Virus record (IMG/VR): IMGVR_UViG_3300033148_007178
Coordinates: 1-22,745 of that record
DNA from: a virus
Length of the DNA stretch: 22,745 nucleotides
Strand: one strand, 5' to 3'
Shown one piece after another: positions 1,668 to 19,013 of this stretch. The notes under the pieces were generated by a model, which was not told the DNA's origin, did no database searches, and saw only the letters and a list, made by a program, of their open reading frames with translations. The first letter of the stretch is position 1. The number at the start of each line of letters is the position of its first letter. A program made the position numbers and the translations under genes.

Positions 1668-1934
1668 CTAGCCTCCTATAAATTGTGACATTAACCATTT
1701 TAGAGGTCTGCTGACCGGTCGGAGCGTCAGGCTCATATGGAAACAGAGCCGGTATATTTGCGTATCGAACCAAAACGAATAAACGGGCGTTTGTTTCGAC
1801 CGACGTGTCTGTTTCAGGTCGATATAGAACCGGTATTTCTTTTTGTGTCGGTGCCAACTGTATCCGAATTCGAAAAAATCGGTTACCTGGAACCGACGGT
1901 CTATATAGATTTTATCAAGTTGTATCGGTTTCAT
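1668..1934 (-). CDS. Hypothetical basic protein, 88 aa
   Basis: Chosen over a competing 65-residue frame (1660-1857) because its ATG at 1934 overlaps the TGA of the upstream resolvase gene in the classic ATGA arrangement, and its end supplies the GGAGG site for the next gene. The product is rich in Tyr, Phe, Trp, Arg and Lys (IYIDRRFQV, YSWHRHKKKYRFYIDL), suggesting a small beta-rich nucleic-acid-associated protein, but no family is recognised. Function unknown; it is probably coupled to resolvase translation. Confidence 0.55.
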   Translation of the reverse strand: MKPIQLDKIYIDRRFQVTDFFEFGYSWHRHKKKYRFYIDLKQTRRSKQTPVYSFWFDTQIYRLCFHMSLTLRPVSRPLKWLMSQFIGG

Positions 1935-3193
1935 TGCAGTTGCCTCCGGGTTTCGTCTTGTATGTCTGTCGGGTTAGTTCGAAAAAAGTCCCTGAATTCG
2001 GTCTCGGTTAATTTATTAACACCGATTCCTGACGCTAAATGCCAATCAAATAAAATGTCTAACTGGTTTAGAGTTAAGACCTGGATTATAGTCTCAAGGT
2101 TTTGCAGGTATGTTAATTTAGTGGTATAAGTGACACATAACTCGATAGACGACCTCGGGGTCTCTTTCGGCATTATTGAAATCAGTGCAAACCCGCCAAC
2201 GTCTTCAATCGTGTATTGTAACGATCCTCGTATAAAATTGATTATGATATTTGACGACCCCTCGTCAGTAAAAATTGAAAACCTGAGGTCCGAGACCCGG
2301 TCTTTATACCGGAGCACGATCCGGTTCTCTAATTCTGTCTTTTTCAGAAGTTTTTGAATTAAGTAGAAAAGCATGACTATTGAACCCCGTGTTCTTATCA
2401 GTTCTGTGTCACGGTACTTGATTCTGTATGATTTGAGTAATATGTTAATAAATGAGATCGATATTTGTTCATCGTTCATTATCTGGTTAATAACGGGCTC
2501 TATCTGGAAATCTATATCGGTTACTTGAACCCGGTCGGATTTCTTATCGGTAAAAACCGTTAACTCGAGTTTGCCGTCCTCTAATTCGATAAGAGACGAA
2601 TGCGGAAAAGACATAACCGGTCTTAAATGGTTTAAAAAATTGTAAATCCGTTTCGATATCGTCAGTTCGTTATGGATAAATTTATCTAATGCGTATCGGG
2701 CTAATAAGTAAGCATCACAGATATCGTGTTGTTTTTCTGTCCATATAACGTCGAACCGGTCTTTACAGGCTTTTAACATGTCTTTCTTCGTTGCTCGACC
2801 GTTCCCGGTTGCCCATTTCTTCAACGTTGCCGGGTATACTTCTACTATTTGACTAAGCCGTGACCGGAAATGCCATTTCAACATTCCTATAAACTCGAAC
2901 CGGTCAACGAGTCCTCGTCGTCTACCAAAATTAACGGCTTTCTCGATTACCAGTAAATCGATATCCGCCGGGTCGATAAGAAGATCTTCTATTCTTTTCG
3001 CAAATATTTGCATTGTCCTTACTGAACTCGACACACGTCTGGTTCCTTTAACGGGTTTTCTTTGCCGGACTACGCTATTGAAGTATTCGATTAAACTTGT
3101 CTCGCCGGTTAAAACGTTATATTCGAGAATAACTGCACCTGTCGATTTCAATGCCGGGTCTATCGCAAGTATTTTTATTTTGTTGTCTTTCAT
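1931..3193 (-). CDS. RuvC-like Holliday junction resolvase with long C-terminal extension
   Basis: 420 residues. Residues 8-170 carry a RuvC/RNase H-fold nuclease: strand 1 ILAIDPALKSTG (D12), strand 4 LLVIEKA (E84), the segment VYPATLKKWATGNG (119-132) that matches the P..vKk..tG.G element of RuvC-type resolvases, and HDICDAYLLARYAL (H156, D157, D160). The four acidic positions expected for two-metal catalysis are present. Such enzymes resolve branched replication or recombination DNA, often before packaging. RuvC proteins are usually 160-190 residues; residues 171-420 form a mixed alpha/beta extension that I cannot assign. An AGAGGA site sits 7 nt before ATG 3193. The gene is in the leftward operon and overlaps the next start by 4 nt. 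Confidence 0.85.
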   Translation of the reverse strand: MKDNKIKILAIDPALKSTGAVILEYNVLTGETSLIEYFNSVVRQRKPVKGTRRVSSSVRTMQIFAKRIEDLLIDPADIDLLVIEKAVNFGRRRGLVDRFEFIGMLKWHFRSRLSQIVEVYPATLKKWATGNGRATKKDMLKACKDRFDVIWTEKQHDICDAYLLARYALDKFIHNELTISKRIYNFLNHLRPVMSFPHSSLIELEDGKLELTVFTDKKSDRVQVTDIDFQIEPVINQIMNDEQISISFINILLKSYRIKYRDTELIRTRGSIVMLFYLIQKLLKKTELENRIVLRYKDRVSDLRFSIFTDEGSSNIIINFIRGSLQYTIEDVGGFALISIMPKETPRSSIELCVTYTTKLTYLQNLETIIQVLTLNQLDILFDWHLASGIGVNKLTETEFRDFFRTNPTDIQDETRRQLQ

Positions 3194-5794: not shown

Positions 5795-5893
5795 AAAAAA
5801 AAGGTGAAAAAAAAGTGGGGTTTATTTCTGTTTTTTTACTATTTAGTGATTAAATTTCATGTAAAAGAAGGTATAGGAGAAGGAGATTTATAT

Positions 5894-6139
5894 TCATTTC
5901 AACACATTTATTTTCTTCGACTTATGGGTTATAGGACTTTCTAAAAAAATACCACACGGCATGTTGTAAATAATTCGTGCGATCTCTTCGAGTTTTAGGT
6001 CATGAATCGTCGAAAAATCCGTTTTTGGAAAAATAATAATAGTTTTTTCACATATAAAAAATAGGTTATTATAATTATATTTATAGGGAGTGTCCTTAAG
6101 AAGTGTTAGTAAGGAAAAATAGTATAAACATACTGACAA
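5894..6139 (-). CDS. Hypothetical protein, 81 aa (uncertain)
   Basis: An open leftward frame in very AT-rich DNA. The C-terminal half looks protein-like (STIHDLKLEEIARIIYNMPCGIFL), while the N-terminal half is rich in Tyr, Phe, Ile, Leu and Asn as expected from low-GC sequence. No Shine-Dalgarno site and no ideally placed TATA box are evident, but a perfect 15-bp palindrome (6155-6169) lies just upstream, where a repressor would block a promoter. It could be a small regulator or a chance ORF; no family recognised. Confidence 0.4.
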   Translation of the reverse strand: MSVCLYYFSLLTLLKDTPYKYNYNNLFFICEKTIIIFPKTDFSTIHDLKLEEIARIIYNMPCGIFLESPITHKSKKINVLK

Positions 6140-6154
6140 AAAAATATCTTATAT

Positions 6155-6169
6155 TATTTTGACAAAATA
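6155..6169. promoter_or_regulatory. Perfect palindrome TATTTTG-A-CAAAATA (operator candidate)
   Basis: 7+1+7 dyad containing the TTTTGACAAAA unit also seen at 5692 and 5715. It is centred 23 nt before ATG 6139, in the zone where a TATA/BRE element would sit, so bound protein would occlude initiation. A further TGACAAAA half-site is at 6134-6141. Regulator unknown; the winged-helix protein at 1286-1660 is one candidate. Confidence 0.5.
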
Positions 6170-6188
6170 GAAAAAAAGAAGGAAATAA

Positions 6189-7325
6189 TTAGTTTCCTAG
6201 ATGAATAATTTCTGAGATCAACTCTTCAGAGGGTTTATTCATATACCCGGGTTCCATCAGTCTCACTTTCCATAATCTCGAAAAGTTTTTGAGAGATGGC
6301 ATTTTCTTTGTCTGTCGTTTAATTCCTTTTAATGCAATATTTAGACTTGCGTTTCGGTCTCGGTGGTCTTGATGACCACAGATACATTTAAACCGTCGAC
6401 CCGTTACGCCTGTTGGATTATGAGTTCTGCTCTTTGCACAGGTCGTGCTGGTTCGATATGGATCAACTTTCATTGTTCTGATTGAAGACCATTTCGCTTT
6501 GTATTGAATGTAAGATAATAAACGGTATAAAAACCAGGTTTCGGGTCTGTCTGAATACTGTAAATAAGTTGATCTGGATAGGTTTTCTAAACAGATAATC
6601 GGGTTCGAATACTTTTTCGATATACAGAGGGCTATATGAGATATTTTGTGTGCAAGATTAATTAGTTTGTGTTTTTTTTCAAGTTTCTTTTTTCCTTTAT
6701 CCAGAACTCGACTTATGGGTTCATATTCGATTATAATGCTGTTCAATACGATTCCGTCTGGTTTTACTGCAGATATTGTTATGTTTGATTCATTGAGATC
6801 GATTCCAATAAACGTTTTAGGTATATATTTAATTTCAAACTGTTCAGAGACCGAGATATAGATGTAATATTTCTTATCTCGTTTTACCAGCTCAGCTACT
6901 TTTAAACCTTGTTCGTTTTTGATTCTTAGTAATAAAGCGGTATCAAATTGATTTCCTTTAATTTTGCATTCTATAGTTTGACCATTTCCTAGGGAAATAC
7001 TTAAATTAAGTTTGTTATCGATTATATAATCGTGACCGTATCTTAAACCGGTAATTATGTTATCCGTAATAAATTTACGACTAAGACTTTTTCTTGATTT
7101 GACTATTCGGTTATAGACTTTGCTAAATGTGTAATCGATAAAATTCTGTTTAATAAACGAGGGAGGAAAACAGTCTTTTAATTTAGTATAATTAGAATAA
7201 TTTGATTTTAATACTAAATCCCTAAAGAGTCTTTTTAAACGATCAGTTTCTATAAGCAAAGTGTCGAGAGACTCCCCGTTATCGATTAACAATTTGAATT
7301 TAAGCGTCCGACGACGAAAATACAT
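6189..7325 (-). CDS. tnpB: TnpB family RNA-guided nuclease (IS200/IS605-type)
   Basis: 378 residues. The RuvC-type triad is intact: D176 in FIGIDLNES, E247 in ICLENLS, D323 in HRDRNASLNIA. The VDPYRTSTTC segment (287-296) matches the TnpB zinc-knuckle region, but the knuckle is altered: C296-x2-S299 replaces CxxC and C314-x-C316 replaces the second CxxC. TnpB proteins use a guide RNA made from the 3' end of the gene and the adjacent transposon end to cut DNA next to a short target-adjacent motif. No TnpA transposase is present, so this is a solitary TnpB. A TATA box 26 nt upstream of ATG 7325 indicates its own leaderless promoter. The gene separates leftward and rightward viral modules. Length is normal for the family. 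Confidence 0.9.
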   Translation of the reverse strand: MYFRRRTLKFKLLIDNGESLDTLLIETDRLKRLFRDLVLKSNYSNYTKLKDCFPPSFIKQNFIDYTFSKVYNRIVKSRKSLSRKFITDNIITGLRYGHDYIIDNKLNLSISLGNGQTIECKIKGNQFDTALLLRIKNEQGLKVAELVKRDKKYYIYISVSEQFEIKYIPKTFIGIDLNESNITISAVKPDGIVLNSIIIEYEPISRVLDKGKKKLEKKHKLINLAHKISHIALCISKKYSNPIICLENLSRSTYLQYSDRPETWFLYRLLSYIQYKAKWSSIRTMKVDPYRTSTTCAKSRTHNPTGVTGRRFKCICGHQDHRDRNASLNIALKGIKRQTKKMPSLKNFSRLWKVRLMEPGYMNKPSEELISEIIHLGN

Positions 7326-7346
7326 TAAAACAATTATTTGATGAGG

Positions 7347-7355
7347 TTATTTAAT
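7347..7355 (-). promoter_or_regulatory. Archaeal TATA box of tnpB
   Basis: ATTAAATAA on the minus strand, preceded by AGAAAAG (BRE-like), centred 26 nt before the tnpB ATG at 7325. It implies leaderless transcription of tnpB independent of the neighbouring genes. Confidence 0.5.
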
Positions 7356-7383
7356 CTTTTCTTAGTTAGACTTAACACATATA

Positions 7384-7438
7384 TTAAGATCTTAAGTTCT
7401 AGATATCTTTGATTTATTAAATGGTCTGTAGATATCTA
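7384..7438. repeat. Palindrome cluster TTAAGATCTTAA / AGATATCT / TAGATATCTA
   Basis: A perfect 12-bp palindrome at 7384-7395, then AGATATCT at 7401-7408 and TAGATATCTA at 7429-7438. The two AGATATCT cores are 29 nt apart, close to three helical turns, so proteins bound at both would lie on one DNA face. This is typical of operators or initiator binding sites; no cognate protein is identified. Confidence 0.45.
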
Positions 7439-7745
7439 ATATATAAGTCTATGATATATGAACTATAGGTCTAGATTTATAAACTATATATCTTTGAACA
7501 CATAGAACCCCCCTAAAACTAATTTTTGTGTGGTATTTTTTCCTGGCTTTTCAGGTATGAACGGAGTAAGGAGAATGCCCAGAAAATACTACAACGCCAG
7601 TATAATATTTTTTAGACCTTAAAACTATGTTTTCCTTTCGTTTTAGACTCAGATCTGAAAATGACCTAGATCAAAAGTGCCGATTTTCCTCAAAGTAGTA
7701 ACGATATGTTGTCACTGAGTGGAGAGAGCAACTGATTAATTTATG

Positions 7746-7757
7746 CAGTTAAAACTG
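7746..7757. promoter_or_regulatory. CAGTT-AA-AACTG operator candidate upstream of TATA box
   Basis: Perfect 5-bp arms with a 2-nt spacer, ending 6 nt before the TATA box of the rightward operon. This abuts or overlaps the BRE position, so a bound regulator could switch the late genes. Confidence 0.4.
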
Positions 7758-7763
7758 TAAAAG

Positions 7764-7771
7764 TTTATATA
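7764..7771 (+). promoter_or_regulatory. Archaeal TATA box of rightward (late) operon
   Basis: TTTATATA centred 25 nt upstream of the ATG at 7792, the spacing for a leaderless archaeal transcript. The purine-rich GTAAAAG directly upstream can act as BRE. This is the clearest archaeal promoter in the window and drives the terminase-portal series. Confidence 0.65.
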
Positions 7772-7791
7772 CCGAAAAGCGTATTCATTTA

Positions 7792-8595
7792 ATGTTTAAG
7801 ATGACTGTAAAGGATGTTAAGAAAAAGTTAATGAAACAACATTATCAAGACGAACCTGAGCGAGTCCTCAGTGCAGAGCTGAATAAAGATAGAAGTCATC
7901 TTCGACTCGATAGAAATAAAATTCAGTCTACTGTGAATCGATTATGGACTGAAGTCGAGGATGATATTCTTCGTAAACACTATCCTCATTTATCTAATGT
8001 TGAAATAGCGAAAATTTTAGTTAACCGAACCGCCCATGTAATTGAACAACGAGCTGCACGGCTTGGTTTAAAAAAAGATAAGAAATTTCTTGAAGTAAGG
8101 AAAAAGAAATCATTGAAAGAGCATGCATGGAACTCTCAAGCGGTTGTTTCTTTAGACGCCCGAACACATGGAATGTATTCTAATAGGTTTATGAACGAAG
8201 ACGAAAAAGAATTTTATTCGACTTTTTACGAGAAATTCGTTATAGAAAATAATATCACTCGATGGGACGAATTCATGTTACTTGACCAGATTATTATGAC
8301 TTTGATAAAAATATTTCGATGTGATTCTTATGAAGCACTTTATGACATGACGCAAGTAGTTCGGACTGAAAAAACGCAAATTATTTTAGAAAACGCATTA
8401 GCGAAATATCATTCCCGATTACAGAAACAGTTATTGTTAATGATGCGAGAATTAGAGATGACAAGACGAACTAAACGAGAAAAAAGAACCGGTGAAGTAG
8501 ATTTAGCACAAGCAATGAGTGCTTTAATGAAAAAATTGACCCAAAAAGATGCTCAGAACCAGGCAATTGATGCAGAATGTAAAGTTGTTGATTAA
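7792..8595 (+). CDS. Putative terminase small subunit (HTH protein)
   Basis: 267 residues. Residues 52-93 form a Myb/SANT-like three-helix HTH: WTEVEDDILRKHYPHLSNVEIA, then the recognition helix around VNRTAHVIEQRAARLGL. The C-terminal half is helical and charged (MNEDEKEFYSTFYEKFV, LQKQLLLMMRELEMTRRTKREK), suitable for oligomerisation. Small terminases bind the viral pac/cos site and deliver DNA to the large subunit. The position just upstream of the large terminase gene, separated by 2 nt, supports the role. ATG 7792 is used because of the TATA box 25 nt upstream; Met4 at 7801 is an alternative. First gene of the late operon. Confidence 0.7.
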   Translation: MFKMTVKDVKKKLMKQHYQDEPERVLSAELNKDRSHLRLDRNKIQSTVNRLWTEVEDDILRKHYPHLSNVEIAKILVNRTAHVIEQRAARLGLKKDKKFLEVRKKKSLKEHAWNSQAVVSLDARTHGMYSNRFMNEDEKEFYSTFYEKFVIENNITRWDEFMLLDQIIMTLIKIFRCDSYEALYDMTQVVRTEKTQIILENALAKYHSRLQKQLLLMMRELEMTRRTKREKRTGEVDLAQAMSALMKKLTQKDAQNQAIDAECKVVD

Positions 8596-8597
8596 TT

Positions 8598-10061
8598 ATG
8601 CCTCGACCGAAAAGACAGGGTAACGAAGACCCCGAATACGAATTTAAAAAACAGCTTAAAGAGAAGATTGGCAAATTACCATATCAACGCAAGAAAGGAG
8701 AAGCGTCATTGAAGGAAATTCAACTTGAGAAATTAGTTAAAGACCCTGTTTATTTTGCCGAACAAATTCTGGGTTATAACCTGTATTCATATCAAAAGAA
8801 CACGTTAAGGAAATCTCTAACCATAAAAAAGATTTTATTATGTTGGGGTCGACAAACAGGTAAATCAACTTTACTAACTCTAGCTGCAATTCATTTCGCG
8901 TTTACGCATCCCAATTCAACTCAATTAATTATATCGCCTTCGCAAAGACAATCGGTGAAGTTAACTACGCAGATAAAATATATAATAGAATCTACGCCAC
9001 TTTTGCGCCATTCTATTGAAAAGAAATCATGGTCTAAAACCGAGTTAACGTTCTCAAACGGCGCTAAAATCGTTTCGTTGCCCGATTCGTTACATACGAT
9101 TTTAGGATATTCAGCTCACCGGATTTATATCGATGAAGCAGCGCAGTTCCCATCTGATGAAATCTTTACAAGAGGTTGTCAACCGATGATTCTCGCTACC
9201 GATGGTGAGATTTGGTTAACATCAACACCCCGAGGTAAAAGAGGTTTCTTCTATAAGAAATTTGTAGAATGGGGCGAATCTACAGACGCGTATATTAGTT
9301 TAATGAAGTCTACTGACTCTCCAAACATTAATCAAATTGAATTAGAGAAACAAAGAAAAACGATGGACGAATTAACCTTCGCCCAAGAATACGAATGTTT
9401 ATTTGTAGATGACTCAACGTCATATTTTCCATATGAATTAATTGGCAGATGTCTGATCCAGCCCGGTGATATGGATTTCGATTATCCTGATCCGTTTAGA
9501 GAACCCAATGCGACTTATTATGCAGGAATCGATTGGGCTAGATTTAAAGACTATACAGTATGCGTTATATTCAAAGAAGATGCAAAAAAGCATCTAACTA
9601 TGGTAAATATGATTAGATTACGTGGAATTGATTATGAAGATCAACTGAAAGTAATTATACCTATGTTATACGATTATAGACCAAAGAAAGTTATAGTTGA
9701 CCGCACGGGCGGTAGACATGATCAACAGTTTAAGAAACTCATTGAAATGGGTTTTAACGTTCAGCCATGTGATTTTAATACAGAAAAATTCGATATAATG
9801 AGCACTTTACAGATAATGTTTAGAAATGGTGTTTTATCAATACCTGACATACCAGTTATCAGATCGGAATTCCGAAATTATCAAGCGCAATTATTGCCTT
9901 CTGGTGCTATAAGGTTAGGCGCAATTGGAAAGAAACATGACGATATACCTTCTGCAATAGGCATGTGTGTATATGGCGCAAGACGTTTGAAACATTATGG
10001 TAAAGTTCGAAGTCGAAGTGCGAAATCACGTCGTGTCACTCGTTTTAGTCTATTGAAGTGA
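8598..10061 (+). CDS. terL: Terminase large subunit (packaging ATPase-nuclease)
   Basis: 487 residues. The N-terminal ATPase has Walker A GRQTGKS (84-90), Walker B IYIDEA (D179, E180) and the coupling motif LTSTPRG (207-213). The C-terminal RNase H-like nuclease has GIDWA (D312), IVDRTG (D368) and KKHDDIP (D448/D449) as metal ligands. The enzyme cuts concatemeric DNA and pumps it into the procapsid through the portal. All catalytic motifs are intact, and the length is normal. It begins 2 nt after the small terminase gene. A 14-bp palindrome follows its stop codon. Confidence 0.95.
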   Translation: MPRPKRQGNEDPEYEFKKQLKEKIGKLPYQRKKGEASLKEIQLEKLVKDPVYFAEQILGYNLYSYQKNTLRKSLTIKKILLCWGRQTGKSTLLTLAAIHFAFTHPNSTQLIISPSQRQSVKLTTQIKYIIESTPLLRHSIEKKSWSKTELTFSNGAKIVSLPDSLHTILGYSAHRIYIDEAAQFPSDEIFTRGCQPMILATDGEIWLTSTPRGKRGFFYKKFVEWGESTDAYISLMKSTDSPNINQIELEKQRKTMDELTFAQEYECLFVDDSTSYFPYELIGRCLIQPGDMDFDYPDPFREPNATYYAGIDWARFKDYTVCVIFKEDAKKHLTMVNMIRLRGIDYEDQLKVIIPMLYDYRPKKVIVDRTGGRHDQQFKKLIEMGFNVQPCDFNTEKFDIMSTLQIMFRNGVLSIPDIPVIRSEFRNYQAQLLPSGAIRLGAIGKKHDDIPSAIGMCVYGARRLKHYGKVRSRSAKSRRVTRFSLLK

Positions 10062-10122: not shown

Positions 10123-11433
10123 ATGGTTAGATTTTTCGAAAAATTATTTAAAAAAAGGACTGAACCCAAATCAAAGTCAAAAATAGTATGGACTAACGCA
10201 GCTTCATTATCGCTGTTATCAAAACTCAATGAAAGAACAAATAGGGAAACTAAAACTAGTGAAGATATTAAAATCAGACGAGTTCCGTTAGATAAATTAG
10301 AAATACTGGCTGCGGCTGATGCATCAGTAAAAGCCGGAATAAACTTAATAGCGAACCATGCAATACCAGATCATTCGATAGTTGGCGATTATGCACCTTT
10401 AGTGATTGATACTCTTTCTACTTTTGATCGAGATTTTGATTTTTATATGAAAGCAGCGGTGAAACATGCAGCTATTTACGGAAACGGATTTCAAGAAATA
10501 GGAATTGGGTCTACTAACCAAAAAGTAACTAATTTATTTATTGTCGACCCAAAAACGATGGACTTCGAACGTGGGATAGGAAGTACTATTTTAGTAGATG
10601 AAAGCCAGAAACCTATTGGTTTTAGACAAGAGGGTCGAATATCAAGTGACCCAATTCCTTATGATAAAATATGTCATTTTAAATTAGACCAAATCAGCGA
10701 TTCAGAAATGGGTATAGGGTTAGTTGAACCTTTAGCAACAATTATAATAACAAAGGCAAATATAGAACTCGGGTTAGGGCAAGCGATTTATCGAAAGGGT
10801 TTTCCATTTTTAATAGGAACGGTCGGAAACAAAGAAGTTGTTCCAACTGAAGACATGATCGATGATCTTTCAGATGACTTAGCGTTAATGAATATGCGTG
10901 ACGAGTTAGTCGTGCCCTGGTATTATGATGTTAAATTTCTTGAATCGAAGAATTCTGAAAAGATGGCGACACATCTCGATTACTTCCTTAACATGATTTG
11001 TGCGGGTTTAGGTATCCCAAAACCAATGTTGTTTGGAACGGGCGAAGATACCAATAAAGCGACCCTTACAGGTCAGATTATTGGGTTTGACCGGACTTTA
11101 CGGTCATATCAAAAACTTATTAGTCGAGAATATGAAAAGAAACTTTTTGGTCGTATTCTAGCCAGTAATGGCATAAAAACATCAAAAGTGCCAGAAATAA
11201 TCTTTGCAGAAATAAACCCCGAAGATTTGAATGATAGAGCAACCAGATTATTGAAATATGCAAGAGCAAAGGCAATTACAATGACACCTGATATCGAAAA
11301 CGTTATCCGTCGGTCAGAGGGGTTTCAGAAAATAAATTCGAGTATGGCAAATACAAAATACGAGAGTAAGATAATCCAATCTAAAGGCTATAATGGCATT
11401 GTAAAAGATGCATGGTCGATAAAGAACGCATAA
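10123..11433 (+). CDS. Phage portal protein (HK97-like)
   Basis: 436 residues. The dodecameric portal forms the DNA gate at the unique capsid vertex and docks the terminase. Typical portal features are visible: an early ADASVKAGINLIANHAI segment, the central wing (KHAAIYGNGFQEIG; IVDPKTMDFERG), and the C-terminal clip/stem region with GLGIPKPMLFGTGEDTNKATLTGQ, where the helix of archetypal portals reads LG.P..L.G......, followed by RTLRSYQKLISREYEKKLF. Position right after terL is canonical. Length is close to the family norm (about 400-500). It is followed by the enzyme fusion rather than a MuF protein. Confidence 0.9.
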   Translation: MVRFFEKLFKKRTEPKSKSKIVWTNAASLSLLSKLNERTNRETKTSEDIKIRRVPLDKLEILAAADASVKAGINLIANHAIPDHSIVGDYAPLVIDTLSTFDRDFDFYMKAAVKHAAIYGNGFQEIGIGSTNQKVTNLFIVDPKTMDFERGIGSTILVDESQKPIGFRQEGRISSDPIPYDKICHFKLDQISDSEMGIGLVEPLATIIITKANIELGLGQAIYRKGFPFLIGTVGNKEVVPTEDMIDDLSDDLALMNMRDELVVPWYYDVKFLESKNSEKMATHLDYFLNMICAGLGIPKPMLFGTGEDTNKATLTGQIIGFDRTLRSYQKLISREYEKKLFGRILASNGIKTSKVPEIIFAEINPEDLNDRATRLLKYARAKAITMTPDIENVIRRSEGFQKINSSMANTKYESKIIQSKGYNGIVKDAWSIKNA

Positions 11434-11452
11434 TAATGATATAAATTTCATA

Positions 11453-14400
11453 ATGGGGATAAATATGGTTCATAAAGACGATATACCATCAGAATTAGAC
11501 ACAAAAGTCTTAGTGTTCGATCATATGATACTACACTCGTGGTGGAATAAAATTCTGAAGGGCGAGACTATTGAAGGTTGGACTAAGAACGAAATAAAAG
11601 TCTTACATGATAAAATAGCAAAAGAATTAATTAAACGAGGTCTAAAACATAATACACCTCTTATCGATAAAGAATCTAACGAGGAACCCGGAAAAAAAGA
11701 ATCCGCCAAAATCACATTAAAAGAGTTTTTACAGAGTTGTAAACCTAAACTGGATGTTCGAGGAGAACCCGTAGTTTTTGTAGTCGGATCGATAGTCAAT
11801 AAAGGATGGTCTGACGAAGGACACGATATCGATATTTTAATTAAATACCCGTATCCAAATCAGAAAATAATAGATACCATAAAAGAATCATTTCCACCAC
11901 ATATAGCCAATAAATTAGAATTTATTTGGGATGCGAGTCCCGATGCTCCTCTTATAGGTAACGCTGTCCCTCTTTATGATGCCTATTTTAATGAGATCAA
12001 TAACGAACAATTATTTGACCTTTCAACTGATTATCAAGAACTAGGTGGCGTTAATACTATAGCGTATATCGGGTCGAAAATGAGGTTTATTAATTTTATT
12101 ACACGCCATATCCCTGAAGGAGTTAAAAGTATACTCGATGGTTTTGCAGGGTCTAATATTGTTTCGATAGCGTGCAAAAAACTGGGTTACAAGGTCTACA
12201 CAAACGACTGGATGAAATATTCATATATTATAGCAAAAGCCGTGATAGAGAACCAACGGAGTCGGTTAAAGGATTCTGATTTTGATATTTTGTTTCAAGA
12301 AAACAAAAACTGTCCAACGCCATTCAAAGACCGGTGGAGTTATGATTATTTTACACCAAATCAAGTTTATTGGATTGACCAGATATATCACAATATCTCT
12401 AAACTGAAAGGTTATAAAAGGTATTTAGCAAAAGCATCACTCCTTAAAGCAATGTCAATGATTAGAGTTAGGAGTGACTTCGACCGGAAAGTGAAAGAAG
12501 CACACGACAATCGGGATTTCAAAAAAGTTTTATTGAGAGCTTATAAGATATTAGAGCGTTTTATGGTAGATGGTCAAGAATGTCGAGCATATAATGAAAG
12601 CATTTTCGATTTATTGCCAAACATGCAAGTAGATTGTGCCTATTTCGATCCTCCTTATGCTGGATTAGTTCCTGAAACTGCTTATCAATCTAAATATTTT
12701 GTCTTCGAAATAATTGCGAATAACTATAAAGAAGACGGTAAAACTAAAATAACTAAACGTCATGACGATAAAGGGGCGCTTTGGACTGCGAAACGAGCTG
12801 GAGAAGCATTTAGTCTTTTATTCGAAAAAGCGAAACACATCCCAGTAATCATGATTTCCTGGTCAGAGAAGGCTCAGCTTAGCTCCCGAAAAATAAGATC
12901 AATAGCAAAAACATATGGTTATGAATGCCGGGTCAAAAAGATTTATCGTGATTATACATTCGATATGGGACCTCGAGGGCGAAATTCAACCAATGAATTA
13001 TTGTTTATTTGTATTAAAGAAAAATCAAATTTTGCATTTGAGTATAGCAAAAATACCGTAGAACTTAAAGCGCTTCAGCCATTCGATAAATTTGGACCTC
13101 TAAAAGCGGCAAAAGGATATCATGAAGCCGAATTCTTTAATTGGGATTCGTTTAAAGAGAATTGGGCAGAGAAAAAAATTAATGAAGAAAAAAAACAGGT
13201 CGCCGTTGAAAAGAAATTTGACGGTATCCGATTCATAATACACCGTAAGGGCGATATAGTTAAAATCGTTACCGAAGACCGAAAACGAGACCGAGCCTAT
13301 ATGTTTAAGAAATCAGTCGAAGATTTTCTAAAACTCAAACCGGTTAATTTCATTTTAGATGCGGAGATGGTTGAATACACTGACCCAACACACAAGAAAG
13401 CATTACGACGAGAGGATATGATAAAATGGGTAGTTGCAAAGGGCGGATTAGACGATAGTAACGTTCAATTCAATGTATTCGATTGTTTATACTATAATGA
13501 CAAAGCCCTGAACGATTTGCCTTGGTCTGAACGACAGGAATACCTAAAAAAGGTAATACCTAAAGACACTACTCACATCCATAGGGTAATCCCAATTATA
13601 GCAAAAACATTGCCTGAGTTGAAGAAAGCTATCGAAACACAACGCAAAAAACCGAATTCAGAAGGCGCTATGGTGAAAACCACTGACCATATCTATCCGA
13701 TAACGGGATTGAAAGAGAGTAGAACCGATGAATGGGCAAAAATTAAGAATGTTAAACAGATCAAAGTTAAAGTCATAAAAATAGAAAAAGCGGTAAGAAA
13801 ATCAGGTAAAGAGAAAGGAAAACCCATTGAGGGTGCAAATATTTATCATTGTGCTATAAAAGACTCGAAAACAGGCGAAGACGTTTTCATAGGTAAAACA
13901 TTCGCCACGTCTATAAAAGCAAAAGTTGGTGACATTATCGAAGTCTCGCCGGTGAAAATAAATATCGAAGAAGAAGATGGCAAATTAAAGTTTTCCTGGG
14001 AATTTCCTCGTGTTACAGCCGCTGAACCTACTAGAACCGAACCCGATACTACAAACGACGCAATTAATATCGCCGAGAAAGGGATTGCCCCGCTTATCGA
14101 ATCGCTTATAGAAACTTTAATGAAAAAGGAATTGGAGATTTGTCCCTATTGGAAAGATATTTTCGAATGTCCGCTTAATTTACGTTTTGAACAACCGATG
14201 ATCGAAATTAATGGTTTAAAATACCCGATTAAATGTAAACACGCATATAATTATCGATGCGTATATGTCAAAGATTATTACTATAATTCGATTACTGATA
14301 TGACCGAAACTTATGTCGAATCGGAGTTAGTGCAACTGGAGCATGAGGATCTAAACGAAAATATGATTGAACAGATTTTAAGATATCAAGAAACGGTTAA

Positions 14401-15094
14401 TTTAGACCAGGAAGCGCCTACTCGTGAGCCGCTTTTACCGAAATTGCTTGAACGACCTAAAACTAAGAATGCACCATATGTAGTTCAAACACACCGACGC
14501 GGTGATTCAGTACATCTTGATTGGCGGTTTGCGATAACGGATTCAAACGGTAAGATACGTCATTTAGTTGGATGGACTGGTTTTGATCCAAAATCAGTTG
14601 ATTTACCTCTAAAAACATCCAACAAACCTGGAATGAATAATCTTCGAGTTAGAACGGTGCCTAAATCAAGACAACCTGCTTCTTGGTTAAAAGTAGAGGG
14701 AAAAGTAGAACCTGGCGAAGTTGGTGCAACGAAAACGTTACCTGGTTTCTTTAAAATTATAGATAAAGGCACATGGATGCCTTTAACCCAAAAACCGTTT
14801 TTCTGGGAAGTATGGCTTAATGGAGATAAGTTCAGTGGCAGATGGGTTTGGCGAGCAGTCAAAGTTCCGGTTATAGACCCGAAAACTAAAAAACCCATAA
14901 AAGGTAAAACTCAAATTATTTGGACGTATTGGAAACCTAAAGACCAGAATCCATATATCGCAAGTACAAGAGCGAAACGTGAAGGTTTTGTGCCACCTAA
15001 AGGCGTAGTTCCTTTACCTGATGAATGGGTTGAAAAAAATCCAGAAAAAGCTCTTGAGATTGCAAAATATCTTTTAGAGAGGTGGTTGAAATGA
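11453..15094 (+). CDS. Four-enzyme fusion: nucleotidyltransferase, D12 DNA methyltransferase, ATP-dependent DNA ligase, LigD-type phosphoesterase domain
   Basis: 1213 residues. (1) About 100-190: polymerase-beta-type nucleotidyltransferase, VVGS (G112, S113) and GHDIDILI (D125, D127). (2) About 198-525: D12/Dam-type adenine methyltransferase, YIGSKMRF, SAM motif LDGFAGSN (229-235) and catalytic DPPY (399-402). (3) About 540-855: DNA ligase, motif I EKKFDGIR with nucleophile K588, DAEMVEY, FNVFDCLYY, SEGAMVK and EWAKIK (K763, K765), then an OB-like fold. (4) About 1006-1170: LigD 3'-phosphoesterase-like domain, YVVQTH (H1014), HLDWRF (H1021, D1023, R1025) and WEVWLNGDKFSGRW. The linker at 897-936 has four Cys. 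ATG 11465 with GGGGAT upstream is an alternative start. All key residues are present. It sits between portal and protease, overlapping the protease start (ATGA). Confidence 0.88.
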   Translation: MGINMVHKDDIPSELDTKVLVFDHMILHSWWNKILKGETIEGWTKNEIKVLHDKIAKELIKRGLKHNTPLIDKESNEEPGKKESAKITLKEFLQSCKPKLDVRGEPVVFVVGSIVNKGWSDEGHDIDILIKYPYPNQKIIDTIKESFPPHIANKLEFIWDASPDAPLIGNAVPLYDAYFNEINNEQLFDLSTDYQELGGVNTIAYIGSKMRFINFITRHIPEGVKSILDGFAGSNIVSIACKKLGYKVYTNDWMKYSYIIAKAVIENQRSRLKDSDFDILFQENKNCPTPFKDRWSYDYFTPNQVYWIDQIYHNISKLKGYKRYLAKASLLKAMSMIRVRSDFDRKVKEAHDNRDFKKVLLRAYKILERFMVDGQECRAYNESIFDLLPNMQVDCAYFDPPYAGLVPETAYQSKYFVFEIIANNYKEDGKTKITKRHDDKGALWTAKRAGEAFSLLFEKAKHIPVIMISWSEKAQLSSRKIRSIAKTYGYECRVKKIYRDYTFDMGPRGRNSTNELLFICIKEKSNFAFEYSKNTVELKALQPFDKFGPLKAAKGYHEAEFFNWDSFKENWAEKKINEEKKQVAVEKKFDGIRFIIHRKGDIVKIVTEDRKRDRAYMFKKSVEDFLKLKPVNFILDAEMVEYTDPTHKKALRREDMIKWVVAKGGLDDSNVQFNVFDCLYYNDKALNDLPWSERQEYLKKVIPKDTTHIHRVIPIIAKTLPELKKAIETQRKKPNSEGAMVKTTDHIYPITGLKESRTDEWAKIKNVKQIKVKVIKIEKAVRKSGKEKGKPIEGANIYHCAIKDSKTGEDVFIGKTFATSIKAKVGDIIEVSPVKINIEEEDGKLKFSWEFPRVTAAEPTRTEPDTTNDAINIAEKGIAPLIESLIETLMKKELEICPYWKDIFECPLNLRFEQPMIEINGLKYPIKCKHAYNYRCVYVKDYYYNSITDMTETYVESELVQLEHEDLNENMIEQILRYQETVNLDQEAPTREPLLPKLLERPKTKNAPYVVQTHRRGDSVHLDWRFAITDSNGKIRHLVGWTGFDPKSVDLPLKTSNKPGMNNLRVRTVPKSRQPASWLKVEGKVEPGEVGATKTLPGFFKIIDKGTWMPLTQKPFFWEVWLNGDKFSGRWVWRAVKVPVIDPKTKKPIKGKTQIIWTYWKPKDQNPYIASTRAKREGFVPPKGVVPLPDEWVEKNPEKALEIAKYLLERWLK

Positions 15095-16899
15095 ATTTTA
15101 AGAATCTTATTTCTATAATCGAGAAAGTTTCAAAAGGTAAAACTAAAGAAGATTTTCTTAAATGGAAAGAAGAAAATAAAGACAAAATTGAGTCAATATT
15201 TAAGAAATACCCGGATGTTCTAAGCCTATTGAGAAAATATCCTTTTAGATTAAAACAGGTTACTTATGGTGGTGGACCTGTTCGGCAAACACCGCATGAA
15301 GATTTTTATCTCTTAATCAAAGAAAATTGGATCGTATACAGATATGACTTTTTAGCGAATCCACTATATGAAGATATTGTCTCGGTTCGGGAACGGCAGA
15401 AAATTAACGAAAAATGGTTCGATTATGAAGGATTAATTGGTCCTAACAATATTTTCAATCCAACTAAAGAACTGAAAGCTGAAATGATTACCGTCGATAA
15501 GGGAACCGTTGATATTAAAGAAGAAACAGAAGAACGAGGTGCGAAGAAATTTAAGATGGATTTCGACGGAAAAGATTTAAAAGGAATTTATTATTTGGAG
15601 CAAGAAAGCGAGAAAGCGGATATATGGGTATTCTCAAAAGGCAAAGAGTTTCTCTCGAGTGAAATCGATTTCGTGATCCAGGAACATAAAGGCAAAAATT
15701 TGGAGAAACACTGGGATCTTCGATTCGATATTAACGATCATTTAGATAAATGGACTTTCGTAGTTAATCCGGTTGAGATTAAAGAAATAGAAAAACCAGT
15801 TAGAGTAGTTCGAAGTGTATGTAAAGATAAATCATGGATGGATAAAGAAGGGAAAGTCACTTTACCACGTTGGGGCGAAACTGAGGTTAAAATTATCGAT
15901 AAAGGGAAGGCAAACATTATCGAATCAAATCCTAGGTTCCTATCAGTTATTTTCAATGGAAAACATTTAAAAGGTTATTATGTGTTCCAGTTACGGAATG
16001 GAAGTTTTGTATTCGAAAAATCGAAATTACCAGAACCGAAAAAACTAAAAGCAACGTTTCCAGAGGGACATCCACAAGGCAAACCGTTTAAATCTAAAAT
16101 AGAGGAAAATGACGATAAAATAGTTTTCATATTAAGAGATATAAGATTTTTTTCGAGTTGTGAGAAATTTGACTATCCGGGTCAACTCCCAAAAGACGTT
16201 AAAGCTATAGTGTGTTCATATCCTGTTGAAGGCAGTTTACCTCATCTAAAAATACAGCGTATTGAATTTAAGAAACCCGCTTGGAGTTTAGATAAAGCAA
16301 AGTTAATTATCAAAGAAGAGGATTTCTCGAGTTGGGAAATTGAAGAACCCCGACCCAAGAAGAAAAACCAGCTCGATGCATTATGGGCTTGTCCTATTTT
16401 TCAAGAAATGCTTCAACAATATATCGACCTTGCATCACATGGTAACCCAATATACGAATACTTTAAGTCAGGAATCTTAACTGAAGAGTTGAGCCAAAAT
16501 GGATTCTCTCGAAAAATAAAAGGCATTGCCCTTATGGAAGGAACATTTAATGGTGCATTCTATCCCGCTGAAGAAATAGAAAAATCCTATAAGACATTGC
16601 TCGGCAAACCGTTTATGATAAACCATTCAAAAGATGTTCGAGACAATATTGGAAAAATAACAAAAGTCTGGTGGGAACCCAAAGAGAAAAGCATGTATTT
16701 TGAGGCAGAAATCGATAATGAAGAGTTTTATTCAAAAATAAAAGAAGGGAAATTGACTGGTGTTTCAGTAGGCGTTCTGACTAATAAAATGATTAGGGGA
16801 AGGAAAATTGTTGCGACTGATCTAATTTTCAAAGAACTTAGTTTAGTTGTGATCCCCGCGTGTCCAGACTGTCAAATCAAGTTTGTTGAGGGCAATTAG
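15091..16899 (+). CDS. Prohead maturation protease fused to LigD-type phosphoesterase-like domains
   Basis: 602 residues from ATG 15091, which overlaps the upstream TGA and has GAGGTGG 5-6 nt before it; GTG 15082 would add 3 residues. Residues about 130-182 resemble the last strands of a LigD phosphoesterase domain (VDKGTVDI, FDGKDLKGIYYLEQE). Residues about 194-313 form a second, complete copy: FVIQEH (H199), HWDLRF (H207, D209, R211), IIDKGKANI, FNGKHLKGYYVFQL. A linker with WSLDKAKLIIKEEDF follows, then a C-terminal prohead protease (about 472-600) with GIALMEGTFN, NHS (H512), TGVSVG (S559) and FKELSLVVIP (E582), matching the Ser/His layout of phage prohead proteases. The protease cleaves scaffold and capsid proteins during maturation. 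The phosphoesterase fusion is unusual. CPDC lies near the C-terminus. Confidence 0.85.
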   Translation: MNFKNLISIIEKVSKGKTKEDFLKWKEENKDKIESIFKKYPDVLSLLRKYPFRLKQVTYGGGPVRQTPHEDFYLLIKENWIVYRYDFLANPLYEDIVSVRERQKINEKWFDYEGLIGPNNIFNPTKELKAEMITVDKGTVDIKEETEERGAKKFKMDFDGKDLKGIYYLEQESEKADIWVFSKGKEFLSSEIDFVIQEHKGKNLEKHWDLRFDINDHLDKWTFVVNPVEIKEIEKPVRVVRSVCKDKSWMDKEGKVTLPRWGETEVKIIDKGKANIIESNPRFLSVIFNGKHLKGYYVFQLRNGSFVFEKSKLPEPKKLKATFPEGHPQGKPFKSKIEENDDKIVFILRDIRFFSSCEKFDYPGQLPKDVKAIVCSYPVEGSLPHLKIQRIEFKKPAWSLDKAKLIIKEEDFSSWEIEEPRPKKKNQLDALWACPIFQEMLQQYIDLASHGNPIYEYFKSGILTEELSQNGFSRKIKGIALMEGTFNGAFYPAEEIEKSYKTLLGKPFMINHSKDVRDNIGKITKVWWEPKEKSMYFEAEIDNEEFYSKIKEGKLTGVSVGVLTNKMIRGRKIVATDLIFKELSLVVIPACPDCQIKFVEGN

Positions 16900-16984: not shown

Positions 16985-17701
16985 ATGGATGAGGAAAAGC
17001 AGAAAGACCTTGCTAAGGATGAGGTTTTCGGCGAAATGAATGAAGAGTCGAACGAATCCAAAGAAAAGGTTTTAGCTGTTGATAAAGAACTTAGAGAGGC
17101 TATTCGGGATGAAATTAAGAAAATACTCAAAGATATGGGTATAGGAAAAGAAAAATATCCAAAATATAAATATAAGTATCCTGAAAAACAGTCAGAAGAA
17201 AAGAAAGAAGAAAACGAAGAGCAATCTGAAAGTTCTTTTAAAGGAACGACTATGCAGATTAGCGATAGAATGTATCTTACTTTTTGGAATGGTCAGCCTG
17301 ATGATAAAGCATTACAAATGGCTATCGAAGATATAATGTCGAAAATAGCCGAAAAAAATGCTGAAAAAAAGGCAGAAGAAGAGGAAGAAAAGGAAGAAGA
17401 AAACAACGAAGAAAAATCAGAGGACGAAAACGAGGAAAAAAAGGAAGAACCTAATATGAAACCAGTAGAAAATGAAGTCGAGAAAAAAGAAGAAGAAGAA
17501 GAAGAAAAAGAAGAAGAAGAAAACAACGAAGAAAACAAAGTCGAAGAGAATACCGAAAAAATTGAAGAAAACACAGAGAAAGTCGAAAACGAATCCGAGA
17601 CTCAAGAGACACTCAGAGAAACTCAACGTTCAGTCGAGACATTGTCCAAAAAGATAGAAAAATATCAGGTTAAGGGAGATTCTATCGAATTCGTTCTGTA
17701 A
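16985..17701 (+). CDS. Putative capsid scaffolding protein (acidic, coiled-coil)
   Basis: 238 residues, extremely Glu/Lys rich with predicted coiled-coil or extended helices. Only the segment at about 82-115 (SSFKGTTMQISDRMYLTFWNG) looks folded. A Glu-rich block is duplicated (EEEEKEEENNEE near 130 and again near 170), and a 7-residue tandem repeat ENTEKIE/ENTEKVE follows. Location between prohead protease and decoration/capsid genes is the classic place for a scaffold that is degraded by the protease. GGAGGT lies 8 nt before the ATG. Low sequence conservation is expected, so the call rests on composition and position. The GAA-rich DNA gives long shadow ORFs on other frames. Confidence 0.7.
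   Translation: MDEEKQKDLAKDEVFGEMNEESNESKEKVLAVDKELREAIRDEIKKILKDMGIGKEKYPKYKYKYPEKQSEEKKEENEEQSESSFKGTTMQISDRMYLTFWNGQPDDKALQMAIEDIMSKIAEKNAEKKAEEEEEKEEENNEEKSEDENEEKKEEPNMKPVENEVEKKEEEEEEKEEEENNEENKVEENTEKIEENTEKVENESETQETLRETQRSVETLSKKIEKYQVKGDSIEFVL
17481..17535 (+). repeat. GAA/GAR low-complexity tract
   Basis: Nearly pure purine run of GAA codons encoding the second Glu-rich block of the scaffold. A related block lies at about 17375-17415; both run into the same AACAACGAAGAAAA stretch, so one likely arose from the other by duplication or slippage. Confidence 0.55.
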
Positions 17702-17735: not shown

Positions 17736-18182
17736 ATGACACAAGAAAACACTCACTTGGTGTATAGAGGTGCTACCGGTTGGACGGCTTATGCTGATGG
17801 CGAAGCTATCGAAATAGGCGATGTTCTGAAAGCAACCAATGCAGCAGGTCCTTCTTCATTACCAGCAAAAATAGAAGACTATCTGAAAGTTGCAAAAGCC
17901 GATGCATCTGGAGACGATGCTAAAGTAATTGGTGTCGCTCTGAATGCAGCCGATGACGGCGAACAAGTTCAGATTGCTAGACCTGGTGGATTCATAGGTT
18001 GGTTCCAGTGTTCCGGCACAGTGAATCCAGGCGCTATTGTTAAAGTAGTTGCATCCGCTGGTAACGAGAAAAAGGTTATGGCTTTCGTGGCTGGAACTGA
18101 TAGCGAGTTACTCATGCTCGGTAGGGCTCTAGTTGGTGCTACAGATGGAAACTATGCGTTAGTTCAAGTGGGGGTGCTTTAA
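17736..18182 (+). CDS. Head decoration (capsid-stabilising) protein, DUF2190-like
   Basis: 148 residues, small and Gly/Ala/Val rich. The layout is YRGATGWTAYADGEAIEIGDVL, then VIGVALNAADDGEQVQIARPGG, then SGTVNPGAIVKVV and a C-terminal LGRALVGATDGNYALVQVGVL. This beta-rich repeat pattern resembles head-decoration proteins of the DUF2190/lambda gpD-like group, which bind the outside of the expanded capsid. AAAGGTGA precedes the ATG. The stop codon abuts the ATG of the major capsid gene with no spacer, so the two are translationally coupled and made in similar amounts, as expected for partners in the shell. Confidence 0.78.
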   Translation: MTQENTHLVYRGATGWTAYADGEAIEIGDVLKATNAAGPSSLPAKIEDYLKVAKADASGDDAKVIGVALNAADDGEQVQIARPGGFIGWFQCSGTVNPGAIVKVVASAGNEKKVMAFVAGTDSELLMLGRALVGATDGNYALVQVGVL

Positions 18183-19013
18183 ATGCGGACTTTAGCAGAA
18201 CTTTTCTTAGATGAAAAAAATGTAGATCCTAAACTGATTAAAGAGGAAATAGCGACTATAATCGAAAAAGCGGCAAAACCACGACTGTTTGGTCGAGAAT
18301 TGGTTAAAATAAAGAAAGTCAGTGCACCAACATTTACGTTCTTTAGGAGAACCACAAAATCGTTCCCAGTACATAAAGGTAAATCTGGCGCAAATAAACC
18401 AGCAGCTCCGGACGCCGAACGAGTGAAAATAGATGTAAGTGTTGACAATTATTGGGTTGATCTGGAATGGACTGAAGACATGATTGACGACAAACAGTTT
18501 GATCTCATGGCAGATGACCTCGAGATTGCCTCCTTCTCAATGGCATTACAGGAAACACAGGATATCATTGATGGTCTTATTGCAGGTGCGGGTAATACTG
18601 TTGCTGCTGATAGTGCCGGTACTCTCGGTCCTGATGACCTCGCAGATGCTGTAAACCGATGCGAAGTTGACGATTATTATCCGACCACAATTTTGATGCA
18701 TCCAGACCAGGCATATGACTTAAAAGTCAATACAGACCTCGTCGATTCGTCATATATTGGTGGATCAGAAATAATCCGAGAAGGTAGACTTCCTATCATA
18801 CAGGGTCTAAATGTAATGGTTACTCGACTGATTTCGTCTGGTACTGCTCTTGTGCTTGACCCAAAATGGGCTGCATATCTAGTTATGAGACAGGACCTGA
18901 GCATGAAAAATATCGAGGATCCATTCAGAGACATTGTAGGTCAACGACTTAAACAGAGACGTGGATTCGCAATAAGACAACCCGACGCAATTTGTACTAT
19001 CACGAACTGTTAA
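18183..19013 (+). CDS. Major capsid protein (HK97 fold)
   Basis: 276 residues. The N-terminal arm and E-loop region (residues 1-90) are followed by typical P- and A-domain features: VDNYWVDLEWTEDMIDD, the spine helix FSMALQETQDIIDGLI, TTILMHPDQAYDL, and IREGRLPIIQGLNVMVT, the near-universal G.i.G..V..T element of HK97 capsids, then LDPKWAAYLVMRQDLSM and a strand-rich C-terminus. The product builds the icosahedral shell. GGGGGTG lies within the end of the decoration gene as ribosome site. The chain is short for a protein with an in-built delta domain, in line with a separate scaffold gene upstream. A hairpin with T-rich tract overlaps its stop codon. Confidence 0.9.
   Translation: MRTLAELFLDEKNVDPKLIKEEIATIIEKAAKPRLFGRELVKIKKVSAPTFTFFRRTTKSFPVHKGKSGANKPAAPDAERVKIDVSVDNYWVDLEWTEDMIDDKQFDLMADDLEIASFSMALQETQDIIDGLIAGAGNTVAADSAGTLGPDDLADAVNRCEVDDYYPTTILMHPDQAYDLKVNTDLVDSSYIGGSEIIREGRLPIIQGLNVMVTRLISSGTALVLDPKWAAYLVMRQDLSMKNIEDPFRDIVGQRLKQRRGFAIRQPDAICTITNC

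Follow-up and report, generated by a model that had tools for sequence, protein, structure and literature searches.

A ligase–phosphoesterase multi-enzyme protein coupled to the maturation protease in head operons of uncultured tailed viruses

The protease gp21 of phage T4 cleaves internal proteins of the T4 head, which are the products of separate genes and have activities other than those described here. Also in T4, the Alt protein is packaged and injected (PMC5512222), and the polyvalent proteins of Iyer et al. (2017) are very large multi-domain chains encoded together with virion genes, with adenine methylases and pol-beta nucleotidyltransferases (NTases) among their domains, some of them ending in an assemblin-like peptidase with a predicted role in virion assembly (PMC5512222). 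African swine fever virus (ASFV) carries PolX, a ligase and other base-excision-repair components in its virions and processes its capsid polyproteins with a viral protease (PMC12172490), while in LigD of bacterial non-homologous end joining (NHEJ) an ATP-dependent ligase is combined with a 3'-phosphoesterase (PE) domain and a domain that adds nucleotides. Here we analysed IMG/VR virus record IMGVR_UViG_3300033148_007178, the whole of which (22,745 bases) constitutes the window, with regard to one gene within its head operon (11453-15094, + strand), an intact reading frame for a multi-enzyme protein of 1213 residues that has features of each of these systems and belongs to a family tightly coupled to the maturation protease.

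As proposed in the initial annotation, four enzyme domains were found in this one chain, the methyltransferase and ligase being recovered with Pfam and PHROGs, the NTase through its relatives together with AlphaFold, and the PE domain with a family profile. The D12-class N6-adenine DNA methyltransferase (12059-13030, residues 203-526) matched Pfam over residues 205-437 (E 1.2e-20, 74.8 bits against a cut-off of 22) and PHROG 27806 over residues 203-526 (E 2e-49), and its membership of the D12 class agrees with DPPY at 399-402 and the AdoMet motif DGFAGS at 229-234. The ATP-dependent ligase catalytic domain (13160-14017, residues 570-855) matched Pfam over residues 573-765 (E 2.7e-24) and was placed by Pfam and PHROGs at about 570-790, with its C-terminal part, up to residue 855, matched by the family profile only. 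It contains the nucleophile K588 within K588-x-D590-G591, followed by E638 (motif III), E737-G738 (motif IV) and K763-x-K765 (motif V); across 59 alignment rows, K763 and E638 were found in all and K588 in 56. The best-matching ligase family was that of the DNA ligase adenylation domain.

The NTase domain (11717-12022, residues 89-190) was weak in Pfam on its own (E 0.24 in the full protein and 0.0037 when excised). It has the motifs GS at 112-113 and D125-x-D127, with G112 and D125 present in 59/59 relatives and D127 in 57/59. An AlphaFold model built from 58 of these 59 relatives reached a pLDDT of 85, and its leading structural matches were all NTases of the pol-beta superfamily (HI0073 with Z 7.5, MNT antitoxins at about 6, DNA polymerase beta at 4.9), with Foldseek giving no match at E 0.001. 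On the basis of these residues and this model we accept a pol-beta-superfamily NTase fold for the N-terminal domain. Between ligase and PE domain lies a conserved segment with four cysteines (14132-14284, residues 894-944; spacing C-x8-C-x20-C-x7-C), found in 25 of the 72 family loci described below and possibly forming a zinc or iron-sulphur site. A helical motif, LHxxIxxExxRRGxxHxTPL, was furthermore seen to recur near the N-terminus, at residues 12-67 of the window protein and at residues 167-221 in the relative L009, where the copy matched part of Pfam Pyr_excise, the T4 endonuclease V family (E 6e-5).

The C-terminal PE domain (PE1; 14474-15043, residues 1008-1197) was by itself below the Pfam cut-off (E 0.013). 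When a profile of 66 PE1 relatives was compared with the PDB, however, LigD phosphoesterases of archaea and bacteria were matched, including the archaeal structure 3p4h (E 5e-5) and 3n9b (E 0.05), and the fold of PE1 is thus assigned by family profile only. Its equivalents of the LigD metal ligands His42, His48 and Asp50, plus Arg52, are H1014, H1021, D1023 and R1025, conserved in 65/65, 67/67, 67/67 and 66/67 relatives, respectively. Two phosphate-binding residues, His84 and Tyr88, are both essential in Pseudomonas aeruginosa LigD (PMC8656161), and at these positions the window protein has Q1074 and W1078. The initial annotation had considered all active-site residues that could be judged to be present, which is correct for the motifs listed, including the four PE residues, but not for these two positions. 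The replacements are a property of the family, with Gln or Glu at the His84 position in 63/69 PE1 relatives and Trp at the Tyr88 position in 69/69, whereas the archaeal PE structure 3p4h retains His and Tyr. These alignments place PE1 in a variant PE subfamily whose active site has been rebuilt. Classical PE activity of PE1 is doubtful because the His84 and Tyr88 equivalents are replaced, and the domain would instead have either an altered chemistry or a role as a binding module.

Directly downstream, the stop codon of the multi-enzyme gene overlaps the ATG of the next gene as ATGA (15091-15094), an arrangement pointing to translational coupling, and is preceded by a purine-rich stretch resembling a ribosome-binding site. 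This second gene (15091-16899, + strand; 602 residues from the ATG at 15091, or 605 in the numbering of the mechanical reading frame, which starts at GTG 15082) encodes a degenerate PE-like module (PE2, 15232-15639), a further PE module (PE3, 15661-16032; LigD_N E 3.6e-8) and a C-terminal prohead or maturation protease domain (16486-16896). In a structure model of the product (pLDDT 78), residues 193-316 matched LigD phosphoesterases, with Z 17.9 to the archaeal LigD PE 3p4h, so that PE3 is assigned to the fold by structural match, and residues 468-604 matched the proteases T4 gp21 (5jbl, Z 11.8) and herpesvirus assemblin. The protease fold together with catalytic His515 and Ser562 (605-residue numbering) identifies it as an assemblin-like prohead protease. 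Structure prediction, proposed earlier as a check, bore out the NTase and, in PE3 of the next gene, a LigD-type PE. The location between portal and prohead protease also agreed with what had been noted before, as the portal gene (10123-11433, + strand) ends 20 bases 5' of the multi-enzyme gene and the protease is found in the gene that follows it.

A search of viral contigs with the window protein as a single sequence gave no match, and relatives emerged only when profiles were used, the first being ANMV-1, L006 and L007 (loci are given by L numbers). With the PE alignment as query, genome assemblies yielded 15 loci and viral contigs 129, of which 80 were retained, and removal of near-duplicates left 72 loci. 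Among 50,697 annotated phage records, PE-containing queries matched ANMV-1 only, with the remaining matches being separate methylases, ligases or proteases. The titles of the metagenome-assembled genomes (MAGs) holding loci name Archaeoglobales, Thermoprotei, Methanosarcinales and Aenigmatarchaeota, as well as Omnitrophota, Planctomycetota and Myxococcales. These titles point to archaea and bacteria as hosts of the uncultured tailed viruses concerned, but only as a suggestion, because binning of viral contigs is unreliable.

NTase, ligase, PE1 and additional PE modules constitute the constant core of the family, distributed over one to three genes that are split at varying joints. The gene order is nearly fixed, from terminase and portal through NTase-ligase-PE-PE to maturation protease and capsid. 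At least one head gene shares the strand in 65/72 loci; counting same-strand genes, the portal was upstream in 28/28 loci where it was seen, the terminase was upstream in 23/24, the protease was either encoded downstream or part of the chain itself in 54/54, and the capsid was downstream in 28/29. In L012 and L053 the multi-enzyme gene even overlaps that of the portal. Catalytic motifs were conserved in 59-69 members, and dN/dS was 0.00-0.28 over all domains, indicating strongly purifying selection as far as near pairs are concerned, none of them being close to the window. A one-off frame fusion or an assembly artefact was rejected, as the same layout was found in many divergent relatives. The initial annotation knew of no such architecture; this precise order of the four domains is indeed rare, but architectures of its class are widespread.

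The coupling to the protease varies in form. Ligase, PE and protease are contained in a single chain in 12 loci (L009, L024, L025, L050, L057, L080, L083, L084, L088, L097, L100 and L101), and PE and protease are fused without the ligase in four, namely the next gene of the window, L034, L066 and L086. Pfam Peptidase_S78_2 was found inside the chains of L025 (E 1e-26) and L100 (E 4e-20), and on the ligase-PE tree at least seven changes between the fused and the split state are needed. These counts come from a cleaner protease profile, which refound L066 with another sequence; matches of a first profile in L056 and L066 were rejected as coiled coil.

Around the core, accessory domains change. 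The D12 methylase precedes the NTase in L012 and L053 and lies between ligase and PE in L082, L085 and L091, while the L025 chain carries three copies; its state changed at least four times on the tree, at three different chain positions, the tally being a minimum from a single profile that missed L025. Other members contain UDG and NUDIX domains (L066), a PNK 3'-phosphatase (PNK3P) together with 2H (L098), 2H (L100), a metallo-beta-lactamase-type domain (L031, a locus that also gave secondary matches to RNA_ligase and capping enzyme), or TGT-like domains (L009, L050, L057 and L080; at least two changes on the tree). An ASCH-like N-terminal domain is weakly assigned in 31 loci, one scanned member reaching Pfam ASCH (E 0.0012). 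By their family matches, nearly all accessory domains tested share a theme of nucleic-acid repair and modification.

When compared with the described systems, the family qualifies as one of polyvalent proteins in that a single chain, encoded among virion genes, combines catalytic domains of different kinds; for such proteins virion delivery would be expected. There are nonetheless differences: the main text on polyvalent proteins uses 'ligase' for RNA ligases only and never mentions LigD, and describes polyvalent proteins as scarce in archaea with large examples almost only bacterial (PMC5512222), whereas many of the present members come from archaeal MAGs and all are built on a constant ligase-PE-NTase core. 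In contrast to LigD, the family has a pol-beta-type NTase and not a POL domain, its PE1 is without His84 and Tyr88, and it is located in a head operon. No Ku partner was found in 46 virus records, many of them fragments, and virus-borne NHEJ with Ku was rejected on these grounds. With ASFV the family has in common the kinds of enzymes that ASFV carries in its particle (PMC12172490), and it differs in that the ASFV enzymes are separate proteins, unfused to the protease, and that ASFV infects eukaryotes and is of unrelated descent.

The one member of the family among the annotated phage records is the ligase of ANMV-1 (AJP62006.1), with NTase-ligase-PE-PE directly after the portal, but with no methyltransferase and with the protease encoded far away. 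It is annotated only as a ligase and goes undiscussed in the main text of the ANMV-1 paper, and ANMV-1 is itself known from a metagenome alone. In ANMV-1 (L002), the gene at 1913-3193, annotated as a 'MutT-like phage hydrolase', is a portal (Phage_portal_3, E 3e-22), and 5868-9368, after the ligase, encodes a cysteine-rich protein of 1166 residues with a MuF-like CxxC...HxxCRC tail as recognized by eye. The multi-enzyme protein had been likened to MuF minor head proteins, an identity that we rejected, since no MuF domain was matched in the window protein with Pfam or PHROGs and ANMV-1 has its MuF-like gene, by motif, as a separate neighbour. Polyvalent proteins and assemblin fusion are already known. 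The ligase-PE-NTase core as a constant part, the spread among archaeal viruses and the PE variant apparently make this a previously undescribed modular family. A literature search for LigD with prohead protease and related combinations, covering mostly open papers, returned nothing relevant, an absence that is weak evidence.

Taking the domains, the head operon, the protease coupling with fusion in relatives and the conservation together, we somewhat favour a polyvalent, polyprotein-like head enzyme, that is, a DNA repair and modification kit loaded into the procapsid, released by the protease and acting on the viral genome. The protein would be a late product that enters the procapsid together with scaffold and protease, and the maturation protease would cut it into parts during maturation. 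The released parts may then act on viral DNA, their presumed substrate, while still inside the capsid or once they have been delivered along with the genome. The pol-beta-type NTase, the ligase and the end-processing PE modules would together mend nicks, gaps or ends by filling, trimming and sealing, circularization of the genome included, and the D12 methyltransferase would mark the viral DNA against host restriction. The strongest argument that we see for entry into the procapsid is the fusion with the maturation protease. Procapsid loading and processing had been suggested before, and that idea gains from the 12 fused relatives and the PE-protease fusion of the window, with virion presence and cleavage themselves still inferred.

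Several observations speak against the favoured explanation. PE1 is without equivalents of two residues essential for LigD activity, seven of the 72 loci have no visible head gene (one of these on a contig of less than 4 kb), the accessory 2H, PNK3P and TGT domains are equally compatible with RNA repair, and neighbouring genes are able to fuse without the enzyme being retained in the capsid.

More tentatively, and as slightly short of an even chance, the family may represent a Gag-Pol-like strategy used widely among tailed viruses of archaea and bacteria, in which a polyprotein joins a repair and end-joining core (pol-beta NTase, ligase and variant PE) plus interchangeable DNA-modifying enzymes to the maturation protease, so that assembly loads the enzymes and maturation releases them, and on entry they mend, circularize and mark the genome. 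Should this hold, HK97-lineage DNA viruses would pack a kit for genome repair and marking via protease fusion by the logic of retroviral Gag-Pol. This would account for the delivery of intact and protected genomes to archaea (probably of hot sediments) that have neither LigD nor Ku, the range of polyvalent proteins would come to include viruses of archaea, and DNA repair carried by virions would become open to testing in tailed viruses. The work also identifies the PE subfamily with the rebuilt active site and provides a marker family for uncultured viruses.

An unlikely explanation, albeit the foremost of the rivals, is repair at the packaging stage, with the enzymes sealing, trimming or marking DNA at the portal or procapsid in the producing cell, with no delivery to the next host. 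The same gene order and protease linkage would suit it, as would the location right behind the portal, at a distance of 20 bases in the window and with an overlap in L012 and L053, but a methylase for restriction protection would need no linkage to a maturation protease, and enzymes fused to a procapsid-resident protease would more naturally be enclosed. Less probable still is a virion-delivered RNA repair or conflict effector, whose ligase, PE, 2H, PNK3P and TGT domains would repair RNA of the host or the virus after cleavage by defence RNases. The 2H and PNK3P domains of L098, the 2H of L100, the secondary RNA_ligase and capping-enzyme matches of L031 and the four TGT-like loci point in that direction, whereas DNA is the substrate of the D12 methyltransferase and UDG, the best ligase family is that of DNA ligases, and the PE is of the LigD DNA-end family. 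We also consider it improbable, to a yet greater degree, that this is an ordinary intracellular protein of DNA metabolism that simply happens to be encoded in the late operon. The operon position alone could be drift, because ATP ligases of other phages are stand-alone and far from head genes, as in Rhizobium phage RHph_Y2_11, but that position is near-invariant in very divergent viruses and is accompanied by repeated fusion with the maturation protease. A mainly structural role, with PE barrels and linked domains as internal scaffold parts and vestigial enzymatic activity, would accord with the repeated PE-like modules, the substituted PE1 and the degenerate PE2, but is very improbable given the strong purifying selection on almost invariant residues of the ligase, NTase and PE metal site and the repeated swapping in of accessory enzymes.

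Some members showed further peculiarities. L025 and L026 are two family copies near opposite ends of one 105,832-base Myxococcales contig, in opposite orientation, with PE1 at least 90% identical and different N-terminal architectures. In L011 the genes for ligase and PE are separated by an HNH endonuclease-like frame (9250-9666), and LAGLIDADG or intein insertions occur in L009, L010, L031 and L081, because of which the locus seems to attract homing elements.

The remainder of the window agreed with a tailed virus, probably with an archaeal host. Its + strand holds the head operon, with the tail sheath at the right end, as found with Pfam and PHROGs. Besides the genes described above, these include the terminase large subunit (8598-10061), an acidic coiled-coil protein (16985-17701) that from position and composition is probably the scaffold, a small protein (17736-18182) and the HK97-fold major capsid protein (18183-19013), all on the + strand. 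Scanning the window for Rfam RNAs and tRNAs gave none. In the oppositely transcribed left region, 6189-7325 (- strand) encodes a TnpB/Cas12f1-like transposase-type protein (TNB domain, E 8e-17), and a 420-residue protein at 1931-3193 (- strand) has a weakly RuvC-like N-terminus (E 0.065).

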